Origin: an uncultured bacterium
GTDB taxonomy: Bacteria; Patescibacteriota; Saccharimonadia; Saccharimonadales; Saccharimonadaceae
DNA length: 64,000 nucleotides
NCBI GenBank assembly: GCA_903821365.1
Contig: CAIJKY010000005.1
Span: 1-64,000 of the forward strand
Direction of reading: 5' to 3'
Positions within the stretch are counted from its first letter, which is position 1. Each line of letters starts with the position of its first letter. The notes beneath the pieces are model-generated. The model did not search any database. It was not told where the DNA came from and worked only from the letters and a program-made list of their open reading frames with translations. The translations under genes were made by a program, and so were the position numbers. Shown in pieces: positions 5,374 through 56,015 of this stretch.

Positions 5374-7149
5374 ATGGCAGACGGAAACAAGACCCTTGTT
5401 GTCCCAGAAATGATTACTGTTGGCGAGCTCGCGACCCAGCTTGATTTGCCGGTCACAAAATTGATCGGTGAGTTGTTCAAAAACGGCATTATGGCTACGG
5501 TGAATCAGCGTATCGACTTTGAGACGGCGCAAATTATCGTTGAAGAACTCAAGCTCGATGTCAGCTTGCAAAAAAAAGAAACCGAAAACGTCATTGCCGA
5601 TCGTAAAGCCGATGTTCGCGCTCATAGTGAACAAGCGAGCGAGCGCCCGCCAATCGTCGCCGTCATGGGCCACGTCGACCACGGCAAGACCAGCCTACTC
5701 GACGCCATTCTCGACCTCAAAGTCGTTAGCGGAGAAGCCGGTGGCATCACTCAGCACATCAGCGCTTACCAGGCGACGCGCAAAGGCAAAGTCATCACTT
5801 TACTTGATACGCCTGGCCACGAGGCCTTCTCGGCCTTAAGGCAGCACGGAGCAGCCCTTACCGACGTTGTTATCATCGTTGTTGCAGCTGATGACGGCGT
5901 CAAACCGCAAACCATCGAAGCCATCAAGTTTGCCCAAGCCGCTCACGCCAAAATGGTCGTCGCCATCACTAAGATGGATAAAGACACCGCTGACGTGCCG
6001 CGCGTCAAAGCCCAGCTTATCGAATTCGGCCTCCAAACCGAAGAGTGGGGTGGTGACACGGTTATGGTTGAAGTCAGTGCTAAAACTGGTGCTGGCATCG
6101 ATAAACTACTCGATCTCGTTCTGTTAGTAGCTGATCTTGAGGAGCTCAAAGCCGAAATCGACGGCCCTGCCGAAGGTCTAGTCATCGAATCCAACACCGT
6201 TCACGGTCGTGGCTCAGTTGTTCGCTTGCTTGTCGAACATGGTGTCTTAAAACCCGGCAGCTTCTTGGTTGCTGGTAAAGCTTTCGGTAAAATCCGCACC
6301 TTAGAAGACTACGCTGGCCGCCCGCTCAAAGAAGCTGGACCATCGACCCCTGCGATCGTCACCGGTTTTAAAGAATTACCACAGTTTGGTGACCGTTTCG
6401 ACGTCGTGAAAAACGAAAAAGAAGCCCGCCTCCGCGCCGCCGCTCGTGTTGCCAGTAACCTTGAGTCATCATCAGCCAGCATGAGCACTACCGATGTGCT
6501 CGGCATGATGAACCGCCAAGCCGAAACCGTCGTGCTAAACACCATCGTCAAAGCCGATGTTCAGGGTTCGCTAACGTCACTCCTCGACAGTCTCCGTTTA
6601 ATTGAAACCAAAGAAGCTGTTGTCCGCATCGTCGCCAGTGGCGTTGGTCACATCTCAGAGACCGACGTTCGTCGCGCAGCCGGTAGTGGCGCTATCATCT
6701 ACGGCTTCAACGTTCAACTCAGCCCAGCCGTCAAACGCGTTGCCGCCCGCGAAAAAGTCGAAATCCGCCTCTATAAAGTCATTTACGAACTGTTAGACAA
6801 TGCCCATACTGCCTTAGAAGACCTGCTCGCTCCAGAAGTTGTCGAAACCGAAGTCGGTAAGCTGACCATCAAAGGCGTCTTCAAGATCACCAAAGAAGAA
6901 GCCGTCGTTGGTGGGGAAGTCACTACTGGCAAGGCTGTGCCAAAAACCTTGGTGCGCATTATGCACGGTACAGAGCAGCTCGGCGAAGCCACGGTCACCA
7001 ACCTCCAGCGCAACAAGCAAGATGCTAAAGAAGTATTCGAAGGCGACCTCTGTGGCTTGAGTCTCAAAACCCATGGCAAATCGACCATCGAAATCGGCGA
7101 CAAGCTCGAATTCTTCACCCGCGAACTTAAAAAGCGTACCCTCAAGTAG
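5374..7149 (+). CDS. infB: Translation initiation factor IF-2
   Basis: The 591-residue protein lacks the long N-terminal extension of E. coli IF-2; only about 90 residues with an IF2_N domain come before the G domain. GTPase motifs are GHVDHGKT (near 99), DTPGHE and TKMD, followed by the beta-barrel domains II and III and the fMet-tRNA-binding C2 domain. It places initiator tRNA on the 30S subunit. AAAGGAG lies 7 nt before the ATG. A strong terminator follows. Confidence 0.96.
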
Positions 7150-7192
7150 CCTCAAGCATCCATCTGCGCAGGGAATAATACTCGCGAAAAGC

Positions 7193-7225
7193 AAAACACC
7201 CCGGTTTAGCCGGGGTGTTTTCATG
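7193..7225 (+). terminator. infB terminator
   Basis: The perfect 12-bp stem AAAACACCCCGG/CCGGGGTGTTTT has a 5-nt loop. The same stem sequence recurs after rplU (42027-42060). Confidence 0.9.
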
Positions 7226-7305
7226 TTCCTCCGAGAGGAACCGATCAACTGCGGGTAGCAGGATGGCTCCTCTCGGGCCAGTAGTGGGTGAATGAATGTG
7301 GCCGA

Positions 7306-7337
7306 GGAGCGGCACCCCGTGGTGGGGGTGCCGCTCC
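7306..7337 (-). terminator. GC hairpin downstream of the 7355 gene
   Basis: A perfect 13-bp stem (GGAGCGGCACCCC) with a 6-nt loop begins 18 bases past the stop of the leftward GC-rich gene. It has no U-tract; it may stabilise the 3' end or act as a terminator. Confidence 0.6.
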
Positions 7338-7354
7338 AGTTGGTCAGCCGCTGG

Positions 7355-8011
7355 TCAGCGGTTGTCCATTGGGTTCCGCTTGCGCGGTTGCTCGGAGCGG
7401 TCGCTCGGCGGACGCACGGTCGTGCGCGTGGTGGCCGGGCTGGCCATCGGGTTCCGCTTGGCCGGCCGCGGGAAGGCCGCGGACGGCGTCTCGAGCGGCG
7501 CCTGGTCGATGACCGCGCCGACCCAGGTGCGGTCGGCCGACACGTACCTCGTGTCTTCGGCCTTGGGCGGCACCGGCGGGGTGTACGACGGCGCCCGGAA
7601 GGAGGTCTGCGGCTGCGTGCACTCGTTCGTGTGGCCAGCGTTGCGCCACTGCTGGTGCGCCTCGCTCGACCCCTCTCGGTTGCCGAACTCGCGCCCCTGC
7701 GCGTAGGCGTTTGCCGCGGCGTCGTTCAGCTGCCCGTTGTGCTCCGACATGATCTCTCTCCAGGCCAGCAAGCCCAGAACGTAGATGATGATGGCGCACA
7801 GCAGCGCGTACAGTCCCATGGCGAGCCATGGCCACATGAAGTTCACGAAGAGATCGGTGGCGGGAGTGTATCCCACGCCGATCAACGCCAACACTCCCGT
7901 GATGGCGAAGATGAACAGGGCTGCGTAGCCCCGTGCCTTCGTGAAGATGGGCTTCCTCTGCTTGCGCGGCGTGACAACCTTGGGGCTGTCAACGCTCGTC
8001 GATTCGGTCAT
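7355..8011 (-). CDS. Unrecognised two-TM membrane protein, GC-rich cassette 1
   Basis: I do not recognise this 218-residue protein. It has a basic N-terminus, two adjacent membrane segments (about 31-50 and 58-82, with a short loop), then a hydrophilic, Pro/Arg/Thr-rich cytoplasmic or external tail with the repeated string KRNPM. The start at 8011 is preceded by GGAGAGGAG. Upstream is the inverted repeat TCCGCAC/GTGCGGA and, near 8117-8122, a TATAAA box with a poor -35. Third positions are overwhelmingly G/C, unlike infB next door, which suggests transfer from a GC-rich genome. Antisense open frames exist only because of this GC bias. Confidence 0.65.
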   Translation of the reverse strand: MTESTSVDSPKVVTPRKQRKPIFTKARGYAALFIFAITGVLALIGVGYTPATDLFVNFMWPWLAMGLYALLCAIIIYVLGLLAWREIMSEHNGQLNDAAANAYAQGREFGNREGSSEAHQQWRNAGHTNECTQPQTSFRAPSYTPPVPPKAEDTRYVSADRTWVGAVIDQAPLETPSAAFPRPAKRNPMASPATTRTTVRPPSDRSEQPRKRNPMDNR

Positions 8012-8334
8012 GACACTCCTCTCCAAAAGCTCCGCACGGTGCGGACGCTCGGAAAAAGGTCGAAACCTGCCCATTCGGTGGACAGAATACAAGCCACAAT
8101 GAATTACATTGCAGCCTTTATACCGTCCACCAAATAAACAAAAAACACATTCATTACTCAAAACTGGTAAATTACATGCACCAAGCGAGCGATAACGCTC
8201 ATCTGTAGTGCAGTGGGTGATATACAGTAAAACTCTATATGTGACACTACATTACAAATGGTAAAAGGGGTGTACCGCCGGGGTACGAGTGCGTCACTGG
8301 TATGTGACACGTCTCGTACCCCTGGCGGGTCCCA
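8012..8334. other. Intergenic AT-rich region between two GC-rich cassettes
   Basis: This stretch has no gene. It carries the likely leader and promoter of the 7355 gene (TATAAA at 8117-8122 on the minus strand; palindrome near 8033-8047 just before its ribosome site) and the 3' hairpin of the 8335 gene at 8280-8322. The rest is AT-rich and I see nothing else in it. Confidence 0.5.
8280..8322 (-). terminator. GC hairpin downstream of the 8335 gene
   Basis: The outer 10-bp stem GGGGTACGAG/CTCGTACCCC encloses GTCAC/GTGAC, and the flanks CCGCC/GGCGG can extend it. It starts 12 bases after the stop. On the minus strand a weak TTTT follows. Confidence 0.6.
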
Positions 8335-9069
8335 TCAGTTGGTGGCGGTGCCACCGCTCGCGCTCTTGTTGGCCAGGCCGGCCTCCAACGAGGTGACCTG
8401 CACGTTCAGGTCGTCCAGCAGAGCGGTCGTCAGCACGAAGCCGTCGTCGATCTGCGCCGGGGAAGCCGACTTGGCGTCGACGACCTTGGTGGCGAGCAGC
8501 TCGCGGATCTTCTTCGCGGCCTTCTCGTTGCTATTGCGCTTTCCCTCGCCGGAGCGAATGAGGTTCTGGAGCTTCAGCAGCTCCCTGGGGTAGCCCGACT
8601 CGTCCAGCTCGACGTACGACCGGTTGGCCGGGCCGTCGAGGTTGCGGCGCACCAGCATCTGGAGCGCGACGATGTGCGGCGGGTAGTCCTGCTCTCCGTC
8701 GCCGGGGGCCGAGAACGCCACGAGCATCAGCGCCTCCTGGAGGGTGACGTCGTCGCGCAACATCTTGCCGTTCACCTCGTGCGTACGCGGGGTGGGGGTC
8801 GACGAGGACAGCGCCGCCGGGGCGTGGCCGTTGGTGCTAGCGCTGCTGCTGTTGGTGACGGCCAGTTCGGCCGCCCGCGGGTGGCAGGCGGCGATCAGGC
8901 GGTCGAGCGCGGCGGCGGTCTCGTCGGGGTCGGCGGTCTCGTCGTTGGTGCGCTCGAGGAGCTTCTGGACGGCGAGGGCTGCCTTGCGCTGGTGCGCGCG
9001 GAGAACCTCAGCCGCCTCGTCGGCGCCTTCGTTGGCGAGGGTGTCGATGGAGAACTTGGGGCTGGTCAT
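8335..9069 (-). CDS. Unrecognised soluble protein, GC-rich cassette 2
   Basis: I do not recognise this protein of about 244 residues. It is acidic and soluble, with no signal peptide or membrane segment, and looks mostly helical (for example HQRKAALAVQKLLER), with a Ser/Thr/Ala/Pro linker around residues 70-95. ATG at 9069 is chosen because AGAGGAG lies 7 nt upstream; longer frames run into the AT-rich leader. Codon use is strongly G/C-ending. A perfect 18-bp palindrome (9089-9106) and a GCGTTGGCG hairpin (9117-9147) sit in the leader, and a TTGACT/TACAAT promoter lies at 9365-9393. Confidence 0.65.
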   Translation of the reverse strand: MTSPKFSIDTLANEGADEAAEVLRAHQRKAALAVQKLLERTNDETADPDETAAALDRLIAACHPRAAELAVTNSSSASTNGHAPAALSSSTPTPRTHEVNGKMLRDDVTLQEALMLVAFSAPGDGEQDYPPHIVALQMLVRRNLDGPANRSYVELDESGYPRELLKLQNLIRSGEGKRNSNEKAAKKIRELLATKVVDAKSASPAQIDDGFVLTTALLDDLNVQVTSLEAGLANKSASGGTATN

Positions 9070-9088
9070 GTCGGACTCCTCTATATAA

Positions 9089-9106
9089 TGTCGTGCAAGC
9101 ACGACA
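9089..9106. promoter_or_regulatory. Perfect 18-bp palindrome upstream of cassette 2
   Basis: TGTCGTGC-AA-GCACGACA (with its complement symmetric) lies 20 bases before the start codon of the 8335 gene. It could be a protein-binding operator or an RNA hairpin beside the ribosome site. Confidence 0.5.
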
Positions 9107-9116
9107 GTGGGGTAGA

Positions 9117-9147
9117 GCGTTGGCGTCATGCGCATGGGCGCCAACGC
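9117..9147 (-). other. Leader hairpin of cassette 2
   Basis: A perfect 9-bp stem, GCGTTGGCG/CGCCAACGC, has a 13-nt loop in the 5' leader of the 8335 gene. Similar leader hairpins are found before other GC-rich cassettes in the window. Confidence 0.5.
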
Positions 9148-9364
9148 CCCAAAGATGTATATGACATCTCCAGGACAAAAGCGCACATGCGTTAACCAGT
9201 CCAAGTTCAAAAAACTGATGGGTACTACGCTGAGGATAACTCAAGCGCAGCCACAGTTCAACACCTATATGTGTGTATTAAACCATGGCTACGCTTTGTT
9301 GCTTCCTCCTCGCGTAGCATAAGATGCTAACGTGCACGGCTGTCTCTCAACAGCGAATGGACAT

Positions 9365-50077: not shown

Positions 50078-51151
50078 TTAGGCGTTGCTTGCGCCACTCG
50101 CTTGAAGTTCGCGTTCGTATGCTTGTAGTTGCTCGATAATATCGCCAATGTCACCACTCAGTGCCGCTGGTATATTACTGCGAGAGTAGCCAATGCGGTG
50201 ATCGGTGATGCGATCTTGCGGAAAGTTGTAGGTGCGTATTTTTTCGCTGCGATCGCCAGAACCGATAAGGCTGCGGCGCTGTTCGGTTTGCTTGGCTTGT
50301 TCTTCGGCCATTTTCATTTGCAGCAAACGACTACGGAGCACGCCCATAGCCTTATCTTTGTTCTTGATTTGTGATTTTTCGTCTTGGCAAGTCACCACAA
50401 TCCCAGTTGGAACGTGCGTGATACGAACAGCCGAGTCGGTCGTGTTAACGCTTTGGCCGCCATGGCCGCTTGAACGGTAGACATCGATACGGAGGTCGCT
50501 GGCATTAATTGTAACGTCGACTTCTTCGGCCTCGGGTAAAACAGCCACACTAACAGTACTCGTGTGGATACGACCCTGACTTTCGGTAGCAGGCACGCGC
50601 TGTACTCGGTGGACGCCACTCTCGAATTTTAGCTTGGCGTACGGTGCATCACCACGAATGCCAAAGATAACTTCTTTGTAGCCGCCAGCTTCGCTTGGAC
50701 TGTCACTGATAATTTCGGTTTTCAAGTCGTTTGTTTCGCAGTAACGAAGATACATGCGGAGAAGCTCGGCAGCGAACAAACTAGCTTCATCGCCACCGGC
50801 ACCGGCACGAATTTCAACGATGACGTTTTTCTCATCGTTGGGGTCTTTCGGTGCGAGCATAGTGAAAAGGTCGTTATCGAGCTGCTCAAGCTTTGTTTCA
50901 AGGTCGGGGATTTCGGCTTTTGCGAGCTCGGCTAGCTCATCGCCAGTACTCGCTAGCTCTTTGGCGTCAACAAGCTGGCTAGCCAAACGTTTTTGCTGTT
51001 CGGCAAAGCTAATAATGTCCGAGAGTTCACTGAGGCGTTTATTTTTTGACGTAAAAGAAGGATCGGCGTAGGCATTGGAGCCCGATAAAAAAGCTTGCAA
51101 CTCAGATTGCTCAGCGAGCAGGGCAGGGAGATCAACATTAATTAGGGCCAT
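50078..51151 (-). CDS. prfA: Peptide chain release factor 1
   Basis: The 357-residue protein has the PAT anticodon-like tripeptide ([14 protein letters not shown]), which marks RF1 (UAA/UAG), and GGQ in [18 protein letters not shown]. It ends translation at UAG, consistent with UAG being a normal stop in rpsA and infB. It sits in the operon rpmE-prfA-prmC. Confidence 0.94.
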
Positions 51152-51580: not shown

Positions 51581-51623
51581 CGTCCGCGTACGCACGCCCA
51601 GTGAAGGGCGCCGTACGCGGACG
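51581..51623 (-). terminator. Hairpin ending the CitE/TerC unit
   Basis: A perfect 12-bp stem (CGTCCGCGTACG and complement, 51581-51592 with 51612-51623) lies 7 bases past the CitE-like stop. On the minus strand it is followed after ten bases by TTTTC, a weak U-run. Confidence 0.65.
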
Positions 51624-51629
51624 ACAGAG

Positions 51630-52628
51630 CTAGACTGCGGTTGTCACCTTCGCCAGCGCTGCCTCGTAGGAGAGCACTCGCGTGGCACCGAAGCGCCACG
51701 GGCGGTAGGTGACCCCGCAGGATCGTGCACGTTGCTGCATCACGAGGGCATCACCCTCGTGAGTGGTCAGTTCGTGCATTTGCCCATCACCGCCGAAGAC
51801 GGCAGGAGTGGGCGCGCCGCTTGCCAGGCCGAGCAGTCGACATGAGTTCACGAACGCTTGCCAGCCCGGGCGGTAGGCATGAACCGCCAACCGCACCTGC
51901 GACGGGTGGATGCAGGTCTTGCCGTAGAGCCCGTTGGCCATGTCGCGCACCAGCTCGTGCCGGAAGTAGCGGCCGTGACCTCGGCCGAACTGATCGACCA
52001 CTGGGGCGCTGAAGCTGAAACTGAAGTCCGGCCCACCAGCCCGGAATTCCCACAGCAGGTTGTAGATCATGTGGCCGACGACGGTGTCGTAGATCGAAAC
52101 CTCCGGGTTGCGGCGCAGATCGAAGGCCTTGAACATGTCGTTGCCACCGAGACGGCAACAGAGCACGCGACTCCGCATCTCGGCCAGAACTTCACGCAGC
52201 TCCATGCGGTACGCGTGATCGGCCATGCGGCCGTCCTCGAGCACTGGCATGATGCCGAATTCATGAGGATGCTGTTCGAGCACCTCCATGTACTTCGGCA
52301 GTCCCTTGACGCTCGCCTTGGGAATGACGAAACCGCGCACCAGGTCGATGCCCTCGAACGTGAGGAGCACTGCGAGCTGGTGGTAGCTGCGCGGCCTGAT
52401 GTAGACATTGACACCAGGGTGGCGAATGGCCTGTGCCATCTTGCGCAGCACCTGCTGGAGGTTGCCCAGCGCCAGTGCTTCGTCGCGCTCGGCCACTGAG
52501 TCTTCGAGGTCGAGCACGACGTTGGCGACGCCGGGCAAGTAGCCAGCCGCCGCCCTATCGGCCTGCCGCAGATTGGCGCAGGGTACGTAGAGGAACGGCA
52601 TGATCAGATCGTCTGAGGTGTCCAACAT
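51630..52628 (-). CDS. CitE-like (HpcH/HpaI family) aldolase of the Ter module, GC-rich cassette 7
   Basis: The protein of 332 residues has the HpcH/HpaI-CitE fold: [34 protein letters not shown] (the metal-binding LEDSV), [25 protein letters not shown] and KTCIHPSQV. Stand-alone members occur in Ter gene clusters as part of a predicted biosynthetic module (family knowledge, Anantharaman et al. Ter survey); citrate lyase itself is not expected, as alpha and gamma subunits are absent. ATG 52628 follows AAGGAG by 9 nt. GC-rich codons throughout. It lies downstream of terC on the same strand. Confidence 0.8.
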
Positions 52629-52667
52629 TGAGCATCGTCTCCTTGAATACATGTCGGGACAGGGAAT

Positions 52668-52706
52668 GCGCCCCGCCTCCACGTCCGAAGACGGGAGACG
52701 GGGCGC
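52668..52706 (-). other. Intercistronic hairpin between terC and the CitE-like gene
   Basis: GCGCCCCG (52668-52675) pairs with CGGGGCGC (52699-52706), with CCTCC/GGGAG inside; a second hairpin TGGCAC/GTGCCA (about 52708-52725) follows. It may separate transcripts or process the mRNA. Confidence 0.55.
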
Positions 52707-52740
52707 GTGGCACATCGTTGTGCCATGGATCAGGAGCGAC

Positions 52741-53622
52741 TCAGGCGAGGCCGAGTCGCTCGTTCTGCTTGGCGCGGCGGACGCTGTGTGCGAACGCTGC
52801 ACCGATGATGACGATGCCGATCAGTCCTGTTGCCACCTCGTTGAGCTCCAGGTGGAACAGCTTGGCGGCCATCACGGCCGCCAGAGCCAGGATCGCCCAG
52901 TGGGCGCCGTGGTCCAGGAAGGGCAGGCTCTTCAGCGCGCCCTTCCGCACGATCAGCACCGTCAGCGACCGCACGAACATCGCCCCGTTGCCGAGGCCCA
53001 CCACGATCGGCACCAGAAGCACCGTGATCGCGAAGGCACCGATGACACCGTCCAGTGAGAAGCTGGCATCGAGGAACTCCAGGTAGATGAACTGACCCAG
53101 GGCGGCGAGCCCCGAAAGCCCAGCCACCTTGTTCTTGATGCCGTCGGTTGCCTCGGGCTCCGTCAGGATTGTGCCCAGGATGCTCAGGCCGAGATGAACG
53201 GCGACGGCGACGATCGACGCCGCCAACACTTGAATCGCCTCGGACGACTCGACCGTCACCGCGAGGATCAGGCTGAGCACGATCATGATGAAGTACGGCA
53301 CGTGCTCTGAGCGACCGGCGGCGTGCAGTGGCCTCTCGAGCCACTTCAGCCAGTAGATCACCGGCATGTCGTTGCCGTCGTCATCCTGCTCGATCTCGAC
53401 GTTCATGAACCGATTCAGGCCGATCAGGCCCAAGAAGGTGAAGCCGAACGTGTAGATCAGCGGTCCGGCGGACGTCAGGATCGCGGCGTACTGGTTGGGG
53501 TCGTTCAGCGCCAGGCTGCCGGTCTGGATGTAGGTCAGGCCGGCCACGTAGGCCACGATGATCAACGGCAGCGCGAAACGCATACCGAAGACCGCGATGA
53601 ACACGCCGATGGTCAGAAACAA
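52741..53622 (-). CDS. terC: TerC/DUF475-family membrane protein, C-terminal part after an in-frame TAG
   Basis: The part of 292 residues has about eight membrane segments and the TerC/DUF475 pattern, with ESSEAIQVLAAS and the acidic FLDASFSLDGVIGAFA, in which membrane-buried Asp/Glu recur as expected for a metal-ion transport or membrane-complex protein. It could begin at TTG 53622, which has AGGAGAGA directly before it, or be read through from the upstream fragment. In frame it continues the 53629 fragment; only TAG-GAG-AGA separates the two. Confidence 0.7.
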   Translation of the reverse strand: MFLTIGVFIAVFGMRFALPLIIVAYVAGLTYIQTGSLALNDPNQYAAILTSAGPLIYTFGFTFLGLIGLNRFMNVEIEQDDDGNDMPVIYWLKWLERPLHAAGRSEHVPYFIMIVLSLILAVTVESSEAIQVLAASIVAVAVHLGLSILGTILTEPEATDGIKNKVAGLSGLAALGQFIYLEFLDASFSLDGVIGAFAITVLLVPIVVGLGNGAMFVRSLTVLIVRKGALKSLPFLDHGAHWAILALAAVMAAKLFHLELNEVATGLIGIVIIGAAFAHSVRRAKQNERLGLA

Positions 53623-53628
53623 TCTCTC

Positions 53629-53853
53629 CTAGGTCTTGTTCAGCTTGTCGACGATCAACGCATTGACCGTCGCGTTGTCGAAGCTGACGCTGATTTCCAG
53701 CAACGTCAGCAACAGGGCTGTGATGGCCACGTTGATGCCGCTGAGATAGCCCGTCAGTACCAGCGTTGCGGCTGAGATGTACATCGGCCAGCGGATGGCG
53801 TGCAGGATGTCTCCGACCGTGATCCGCGTTTGCGCTGTCGTTCCAGATGACAA
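53629..53853 (-). CDS. terC: TerC/DUF475-family protein, N-terminal part, ending in an in-frame TAG
   Basis: The 74-residue part, with TTG start at 53853 after GGAGG, holds one and a half membrane segments and the motif LEISVSFDNATVNALIV, with the conserved FDNA of TerC. It stops at TAG 53629-53631, where the family from memory has a Trp or similar residue before the next helix. A single base change from TGG would explain it. With 53622 the two halves give one TerC of normal length. Confidence 0.65.
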   Translation of the reverse strand: MSSGTTAQTRITVGDILHAIRWPMYISAATLVLTGYLSGINVAITALLLTLLEISVSFDNATVNALIVDKLNKT

Positions 53854-53911
53854 GGTATAACACCTCCAGGATGTGCGAGATCGGGGCGGGATGCCCGCGA
53901 TCAACGTGCAA

Positions 53912-53940
53912 ACTTTACAACGAAAGTATAAAAAAAGCAA
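53912..53940 (-). promoter_or_regulatory. Promoter of the terC unit
   Basis: On the minus strand TTGCTT (53935-53940), 17 bp and TAAAGT (53912-53917) lie in an AT-rich stretch; the GC leader has a GATCG-GGGCAT-CCC hairpin before the ribosome site. Confidence 0.5.
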
Positions 53941-54030
53941 TACTTTCAAGCATTGTAAGAATTATAATTTTATTGTATGGTTCTGCAGTACGAAGTTGGC
54001 ACTATCCCATGAGTGAGGAGTGGCGCGTGG

Positions 54031-54482
54031 ATGATCTGGAAGGGTGTATTCCGGATGGTTGCGGTGACGGCTGTGCTGGTGGTTGCTTCGAGGGGTGCTT
54101 CGGCGCTGCTATTGATGCAGCGGGAGACTTGGCCGAAGGCTGTTTCAGTGTTGTTCGGCTGCCAAGCTTGAACAAGCGGCGCTCACGCGGCAAGTCGTCA
54201 AAACGTCCGAAGCCCGGGCGTGTCTGGCTGCGGTTGAAGTTGCTGAACCAGACTGAAGGTGCCGAAGACGCGGTCAAGCAGCTGATGACGTACGGCCGCA
54301 CTGACCTGTGCGTGTTGAAGATCACCGACTACGCGAGTTGGCGTTGGCCGCTGAGCCGCTGGCGAACGCGAGTCGTACTAGCGGTGTGTTACGGTGGTGA
54401 CGCTGCGCTGTTGCGTGGTAGGGCGCTGGATATTCAGTGCAACCACCCGGCGGCGAAGCGGCCGAAGAACATCGCAATGTAG
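54031..54482 (+). CDS. Cysteine-array protein of unknown function, GC-rich cassette 8
   Basis: The protein of about 150 residues is not recognised. Near the start is the string GCIPDGCGDGCAGGCFEGCF with five cysteines spaced by five, four, four and four residues, set in glycines; then a hydrophobic-acidic stretch, a basic Arg/Lys patch (NKRRSRGKSSKRPKPGR) and a C-terminal domain with CVLKITDYASWRWPLSRW. ATG 54031 has GAGGAG 10 nt upstream; ATG 54009 is possible. A membrane-proximal, lipid-modified or metal-binding array are all conceivable. Confidence 0.6.
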
Positions 54483-54519
54483 GAGAGCGCGTGCATTCGC
54501 TTCAACAATACAACTTCAT

Positions 54520-54565
54520 AGCCCTACGGGCGCGGAAAATCCTAGTACCGCCGTGGGGCTTTTTC
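54520..54565 (+). terminator. Terminator of cassette 8
   Basis: AGCCC (54520-54524) with GGGCT (54556-54560), continuing through TACGG/CCGTG and CGG/CCG, is followed by TTTTT: an intrinsic terminator. Confidence 0.8.
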
Positions 54566-54605
54566 GTGCCTGAAAGAAGTTGATTTGAGAAAAAGAAAAA
54601 AAGTG

Positions 54606-54633
54606 TTGACAAAATTAAATAAAGTAGTAGAGT
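54606..54633 (+). promoter_or_regulatory. terD promoter
   Basis: TTGACA (54606-54611), 16 bp and TAGAGT (54628-54633) lie 57 nt before the GTG start. The spacer AAATTAAATAAAG is nearly the same as in the greA promoter at 63009. Confidence 0.65.
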
Positions 54634-54689
54634 TGGTCATTAAGTCCTGAGGCATTCCGCCAAAGGCACAACGAGAGGGTAATACAATC

Positions 54690-55274
54690 GTGTCCGACAT
54701 CCAGGTGTCCAGCAAGAAGCTTTCGCTCGACAAGCCGTCCGTCAGCCTGACCGAGGCCAACGCCGCGGCCGGCGCCAGTCCGGCCGCGCTCGACCAGGTC
54801 ACCCTGGCCGGTGGCTGGAAGGCCGGCACCATCGACGTGGACCTGTCCACCGCCACGGTCGACGCCAGCGGTCGCGTGCTCGAGCTGGTCTACTACGGCA
54901 AGAAGTCCGGTGCCAACGGTGCCATCACCCACGGAGGCGACAACCTCACGGGTGAGGGCGAGGGCGACGACGAGACCATCGGCATCCGCCTCTCCCGGCT
55001 GTCGCCGGAGGTCGCGGCCGTCATCGGTCTGATCAACGTCTACGCGGGCGAGAGCCGCCTGTCCAACGTGAAGGAGATCTTCTCCCGCGTGGTCAACGGT
55101 GACGGCACCGAGATCGCCCGCTACGAGCTCGGCCAGACCGCGGGCGACGCCAACGGTCTCGAGTTCTGCGAGTTCCGCCGCAACGGCACCGGCTGGGACT
55201 TCAACGTCCTGTCGTCGCCGTTCGCGGACGGGCTCCAGGCCTACGTGGCCGCGCGCAACGCCGCCGCCGGCTGA
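54690..55274 (+). CDS. terD: TerD family protein, GC-rich cassette 9
   Basis: The 194-residue protein is a TerD beta-sandwich: the Ca-binding-site region DVDLSTATVDASG and the signature THGGDNLTGEGEGDDETI, followed by SRLSPEVAAVIGLINVYAG and a C-terminal strand. TerD-type proteins bind calcium and occur in tellurite, phage and stress-response gene sets (family knowledge). GTG start after GAGAGGG. GC-rich codons; promoter and 3' hairpin of its own. It faces away from the leftward terC-CitE unit. Confidence 0.88.
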   Translation: MSDIQVSSKKLSLDKPSVSLTEANAAAGASPAALDQVTLAGGWKAGTIDVDLSTATVDASGRVLELVYYGKKSGANGAITHGGDNLTGEGEGDDETIGIRLSRLSPEVAAVIGLINVYAGESRLSNVKEIFSRVVNGDGTEIARYELGQTAGDANGLEFCEFRRNGTGWDFNVLSSPFADGLQAYVAARNAAAG

Positions 55275-55286
55275 CCGCCCCCTCCA

Positions 55287-55331
55287 GGGATACCCCGCAT
55301 CCAGGCTTCGGCCTCGGGTGCGGGGTATCCC
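55287..55331 (+). terminator. Hairpin downstream of terD
   Basis: A perfect 13-bp stem (GGGATACCCCGCA and complement) with inner AGGC-TTCG-GCCT is 12 bases past the stop; no U-tract. Confidence 0.6.
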
Positions 55332-55404
55332 GCAGCACAACTTATAGCAAATAGACACACGCAGCTTCACAGCTGTGTTTTTTATCTCATGCACAATATT
55401 TCAT

Positions 55405-55433
55405 TTGACAAAACCCCAAAAAAATACTAAAAT
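55405..55433 (+). promoter_or_regulatory. Promoter of cassette 10
   Basis: TTGACA (55405-55410), 17 bp and TAAAAT (55428-55433) precede a leader with two hairpins, TCGGCC-GGCCGA and GGGCAC-GGTGCCC. Confidence 0.7.
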
Positions 55434-55522
55434 CCGCAAGACTCGGCCTTCCTGGCCGATCATGCAGCAATGTTTACGTGGGCACAACCGGTGCCCGAAC
55501 GAAGCGAAGAAAGTGAGCAGTC

Positions 55523-55957
55523 ATGTCCGGAAGCAATGCTCGCGGCTCGGGTGATGATGTGGCGACGGGCCGCATCAGCGGGGCAGCCGCTGCGACACCG
55601 GCGCGCAGGCGCACCATGCCGACCTGGGTGCCGCTCGCCGCAATGGCGATCAACGGCCTGTCCATCCTGGATGCGTCGACCTTCATCGGTCGCTCGGTGC
55701 TCTACATCCTGCTGGGATTCAACATCGCCTACACCATTGCACTGATGCGTAACGGTCGCAGCTTCAGCCGCGTCGCCATCAGGCCGCTGTACCTGATCAC
55801 GTTGACGCTCGGCATGACGGCCGCGTTCGTCGCCGTCATCCTGTTCGGTATCAAGATCGCCTTTTGGATCCTGGCGATCATGGCGCTGCTCTTCGCGGTG
55901 ACGGTCGTCTACGGCGCCTACAAGCTCAAGCAACGTCTGGGCCGCCGCCGTCCCTAA
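55523..55957 (+). CDS. Unrecognised membrane protein, GC-rich cassette 10
   Basis: The 144-residue protein has a Gly/Ala/Ser N-terminus, three or four membrane segments (about 35-48, 58-78, 88-110, 114-134) and a basic tail ending LGRRRP. Not recognised. A weak GAAAGTGA-type site lies before the ATG. GC-rich. It sits after terD and may belong with the Ter set, although no motif shows this. Confidence 0.6.
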   Translation: MSGSNARGSGDDVATGRISGAAAATPARRRTMPTWVPLAAMAINGLSILDASTFIGRSVLYILLGFNIAYTIALMRNGRSFSRVAIRPLYLITLTLGMTAAFVAVILFGIKIAFWILAIMALLFAVTVVYGAYKLKQRLGRRRP

Positions 55958-55974
55958 TCGTTCAGCTGCATGAA

Positions 55975-56015
55975 GACAGCAGGGCAGTGCGCTGGTCGCG
56001 CGCCGCCCTGCTGTC
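55975..56015 (+). terminator. Hairpin downstream of cassette 10
   Basis: A perfect 11-bp stem (GACAGCAGGGC, 55975-55985 with 56005-56015) 17 bases past the stop, with no U-tract. Confidence 0.6.

Follow-up and report, generated by a model that had tools for sequence, protein, structure and literature searches.

Introduction

Metal transport or metalation activity has been reported for the TerC proteins MeeF and MeeY (PMC10550928). A gene of the DUF475/TerC family (PF04332, related to PF03741) is expected to have one uninterrupted frame, and in ter stress clusters, of the tellurium-resistance type, TerC is found with TerD and a PF15617 lyase, the three lying within about 6 kb in a relative of the bacterium studied here (genome G014). 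It is already known that a prokaryotic gene can carry a lone in-frame stop and be intact otherwise. Belinky et al. 2021 (PMC7918605) argued that such a stop is a poor pseudogene marker, and a proposal has been made that prokaryotes commonly read through in-frame stops (PMC7918605).

Here we describe a terC gene from an uncultured bacterium of the Saccharimonadaceae, located in a window of 64,000 nucleotides that comprises positions 1 to 64,000 of contig CAIJKY010000005.1 (assembly GCA_903821365.1). The gene covers nearly the whole family profile and carries the conserved motifs on both sides of an in-frame TAG, which takes the place of an otherwise invariant Trp75. Like the genes described by Belinky et al., it has one stop in a frame that is otherwise undamaged; unlike them, it has no orthologous stop in the relatives examined. 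TerC, TerD and the PF15617 lyase lie here within 4.4 kb as in ter clusters, yet the set is reduced, it is transcribed outward in both directions and its TerC is broken.

Results

The terC frame lies on the minus strand and starts at TTG 53853, preceded by a good Shine-Dalgarno sequence (GGAGGTG). Its N-terminal part (53632..53853, 74 codons) contains the conserved E53, S57, N60 motif and ends at the TAG of codon 75 (53629..53631), after which GAG, AGA and TTG (53622-53620) follow in the same frame. The C-terminal part (52741..53622) holds 293 codons from this TTG and is closed by TGA at 52743-52741. Coordinates and sequence thus bear out the earlier note, according to which the two parts share one frame and are separated by TAG-GAG-AGA. 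Read with X at the stop, terC matches DUF475 (PF04332) over residues 58-363 with an E-value of 7.9e-79 and 266 bits against a gathering cutoff of 27, covering profile positions 1-292 of 293, and the C part by itself matches PF04332 at 4.9e-72. As a single stop breaks 370 codons of homology, the shared frame of the two parts is not a matter of chance. Within these 370 codons we found no second stop or frameshift. No NCBIfam equivalog cutoff is reached by terC, indicating a divergent DUF475 member, and a search of genome contigs, of genome samples from the family, class and phylum, and of plasmids and phages returned no close donor or ortholog, the best match having 47% identity.

To see which residue stands opposite the stop, as the earlier note had proposed, we aligned the terC frame by tblastn with homologues that include Actinomycetota and Deinococcota plasmids, among them Embleya, Rhodococcus and Deinococcus plasmid genes. 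The column holds Trp in 58 of 58 close DUF475-type homologues (49/49 aligned and nine further loci), and Trp is missing there solely in a more distant group of about 30% identity. Since all close homologues have Trp, a single-base change of TGG to TAG fits, and of the options considered in the earlier note the inactivation of terC by one such change is the best supported. None of the homologues examined has a stop at the column of codon 75, some stop-flagged matches lying outside that set. Apart from codon 75 the gene is well kept: it retains 59 of the 64 columns that are at least 95% conserved in the alignment, and its five departures (L68V, S72N, the stop at W75, I84V and E314D) compare with 0-6 in intact relatives. 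The clustering of departures near the stop, at positions 68-84, was considered as a signal and dropped, as N72 or V84 also occurs in Embleya and in one other relative.

The standing of UAG as a stop codon bears on every reading of the gene. Of 499 long ORFs in the genome 261 end in TAA, 173 (about 35%) in TAG and 65 in TGA, and both release factors are encoded, RF2 with its SPF motif and RF1 with its PAT motif, the latter by prfA within the window (50078..51151, minus strand). No tRNA with a CUA anticodon is present among the 40 tRNAs on which ARAGORN and the Rfam tRNA model agree; a hidden one is conceivable in an assembly of 95% completeness in which the 3' end of the 16S rRNA was not found. 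The anticodon stem of tRNA-Trp is a normal one of 5 bp, and in-frame back-up stops are not commoner behind TAG than behind TAA. Reassignment of UAG, for which none of these five surveys speaks, was therefore rejected, in agreement with the earlier note, which had taken UAG for a normal stop and recoding for unlikely.

We then asked how often genes of this genome are interrupted in the same manner. ORFs of a congener (G001) were aligned to the genome, giving 752 best non-overlapping alignments over about 228,000 codons; antisense shadow ORFs of the GC-rich G001 were filtered, partly by eye, and three residual lines were judged to be shadows. Two clean single internal stops emerged, both TAG, one of them that of terC. 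The other, at C3:137970, lies in an unrelated gene of 558 codons, whose polytopic membrane protein product has no match in Pfam. Its context is W-TAG-G; G001 has Glu at the position and more distant relatives vary, and the first in-frame start comes 15 codons after the stop. Both stops are consistent with a single-base difference from a sense codon in genes otherwise undamaged. Of the stop mutations reachable in one step, about 39% yield TAG, so that two ambers out of two are expected about 15% of the time and are unremarkable. The same comparison listed 23 frameshift candidates, and in the reverse comparison no listed stop in G001 was judged convincing. A scan of codon usage for split genes, which the comparison with G001 replaced, had yielded mostly ORF pairs with a start just past the stop; it missed terC because the codon usage of terC is foreign.

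The foreign composition extends to the surroundings of the gene. The host genome (1.03 Mb, in a draft of 17 contigs) has 48.4% GC and a GC3 of 0.48, whereas terC has 62% and 0.88. The gene belongs to a GC-rich ter-type island of ~4.4 kb (51600..56000) with ordinary flanks, rpmE and prfA on one side and rpsB on the other. Downstream of terC on the minus strand lies an intact gene for a C-C bond lyase of the ter-cluster type (PF15617, 51630..52628). Three ORFs are found on the plus strand: one of 157 aa (54009..54482), Cys-rich and without a Pfam match; an intact TerD-domain protein of 194 aa (54690..55274; PF02342, E 1.9e-30); and a small hydrophobic protein of 144 aa (55523..55957) without a significant Pfam match. 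The Cys and Gly residues of the 157-aa ORF are concentrated at its N-terminus (CIPDGCGDGCAGGCFEGCFG). All island ORFs other than terC are open, and AT-rich gaps that resemble promoters lie between the genes. PF15617 occurs in 2 of 61 genomes searched and TerD in 4 of 61, both counts including the genome of the window, so that the gene set is sporadic.

G001 has no PF15617 match and no TerD above threshold. Its rpsB and rpmE are likewise arranged head to head, about 12 kb apart (C2:814664-826814), and the interval encodes other ter-like proteins, mostly GC3-rich, namely one vWA-TerF-like protein, a second weaker one and one weak TerD-like protein, none of which gave a sequence match to the island described here. 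The space from rpsB to rpmE/prfA is a variable locus, occupied by ter-type genes in this genome and by different ter-like genes in G001. Elsewhere in the genome an intact DUF475 paralog, 39% identical to terC and probably native, is found at C3:133132-134091.

Discussion

Based on these data we propose that terC is probably a redundant gene of horizontal origin that was recently struck by a nonsense mutation. A terC of the DUF475 branch would have arrived within a GC-rich stress or metal island of the ter type that entered between rpmE and rpsB; recently, one substitution would have turned the codon of the invariant Trp75 into amber. Translation from TTG 53853 would then stop after 74 residues, leaving full-length TerC absent or present in traces, a loss that is probably tolerated thanks to the other DUF475 gene, which is intact. 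The stop, the homology, the conserved Trp, the foreign composition, the paralog and the standard use of UAG were observed directly; the horizontal origin, the recency and the loss of function we infer.

The mark of a nonsense pseudogene is an early stop at a position where its relatives encode an amino acid, and terC has one. The absence of any further stop or frameshift over 370 codons speaks for recency; more generally, a gene undamaged but for its stop suggests that the change is recent, that it is an error or that the gene is still in use. Of the two features that the earlier note had paired, relatives with an uninterrupted gene and further decay in this strain, the first was found and the second was not. 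As terC shows no other decay and the remaining ORFs of the island are open, the stop would be the one sign of disuse, and as lone stops have been questioned as pseudogene markers (PMC7918605) our confidence in the pseudogene reading is not higher.

The next most likely reading, which we nevertheless regard as unlikely, is a base error in the draft assembly, the true codon being a sense codon and terC intact. The assembly is indeed fragmented and incomplete, and the two internal stops, each consistent with a one-base difference from a sense codon in an undamaged gene, would fit such errors. Against this, only two such stops in all the codons aligned with G001 do not indicate a high rate of base errors.

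We consider it very doubtful that terC is expressed by stop-restart coupling, in which termination at TAG would be followed by a restart at the TTG 6 nt downstream and the products, of 74 and 293 aa, would cooperate as TerC subunits. The idea, one of the options in the earlier note, draws on the sequence AGGAG-AGA-TTG (53620..53630, minus strand), a weak putative restart site whose AGGAG takes in part of the stop and is followed at once by a TTG in the same frame, and on the undamaged state of the C part. The earlier note had placed the Shine-Dalgarno sequence 4 nt before the TTG; the spacing measured from AGGAG is 3 nt, which is short. Moreover, the purine run consists of the Glu-Arg codons beside the Trp position, and the only new base is the A of TAG. 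When in-frame TGG codons of the genome's long ORFs are changed to TAG, a Shine-Dalgarno sequence with an in-frame start arises in 0.6% (5-base motif) to 2.1% (4-base motif) of cases, so that the coincidence at terC is unusual, not extraordinary. None of the homologues examined shows a split at this position. The conserved motifs are divided, with E53/S57/N60 in the N part and D262-D268 in the C part, and neither product alone holds both.

Partial readthrough of the UAG, giving low levels of full-length TerC, is the least probable of these readings, as the proposed commonness of readthrough in prokaryotes and the amber identity of both internal stops stand against the presence of RF1, the ordinary use of UAG with no excess of back-up stops, the 40 tRNAs without a CUA anticodon, the normal tRNA-Trp stem and the expected frequency of two ambers in two. 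Restart or readthrough of terC is thus possible but unsupported, and it would be a long shot to suppose that this lineage tolerates amber codons in membrane-protein genes, with TerC made either as a pair of subunits, co-translated through stop-restart at TAGGAGAGATTG, or through regulated readthrough of the amber codon.

Taken at face value, a nonsense mutation in terC would be a routine case of a small genome losing a gene that was acquired and redundant. The locus also carries a caution, as what resembles a Shine-Dalgarno sequence at a stop can be plain Glu-Arg codons. Should both halves nevertheless be made and cooperate, terC would represent a TerC split in nature, on which stop-restart coupling could be tested cleanly.

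The composition of the island, its sporadic gene set and the different content of the same interval in G001 are most naturally explained by horizontal acquisition at a variable locus. GC-rich sequence is also found elsewhere in this genome. About 23 patches exceed 57.5% GC against 48% overall, for example positions 6751-9250 of the window, C1:19001-23750 and C13:102001-105750, and the high-GC3 ORFs listed in ten of the patches have GC3 values of about 0.8-0.9. A second gene for a TerD-domain protein lies in another GC-rich patch, at C13:22909-23304.
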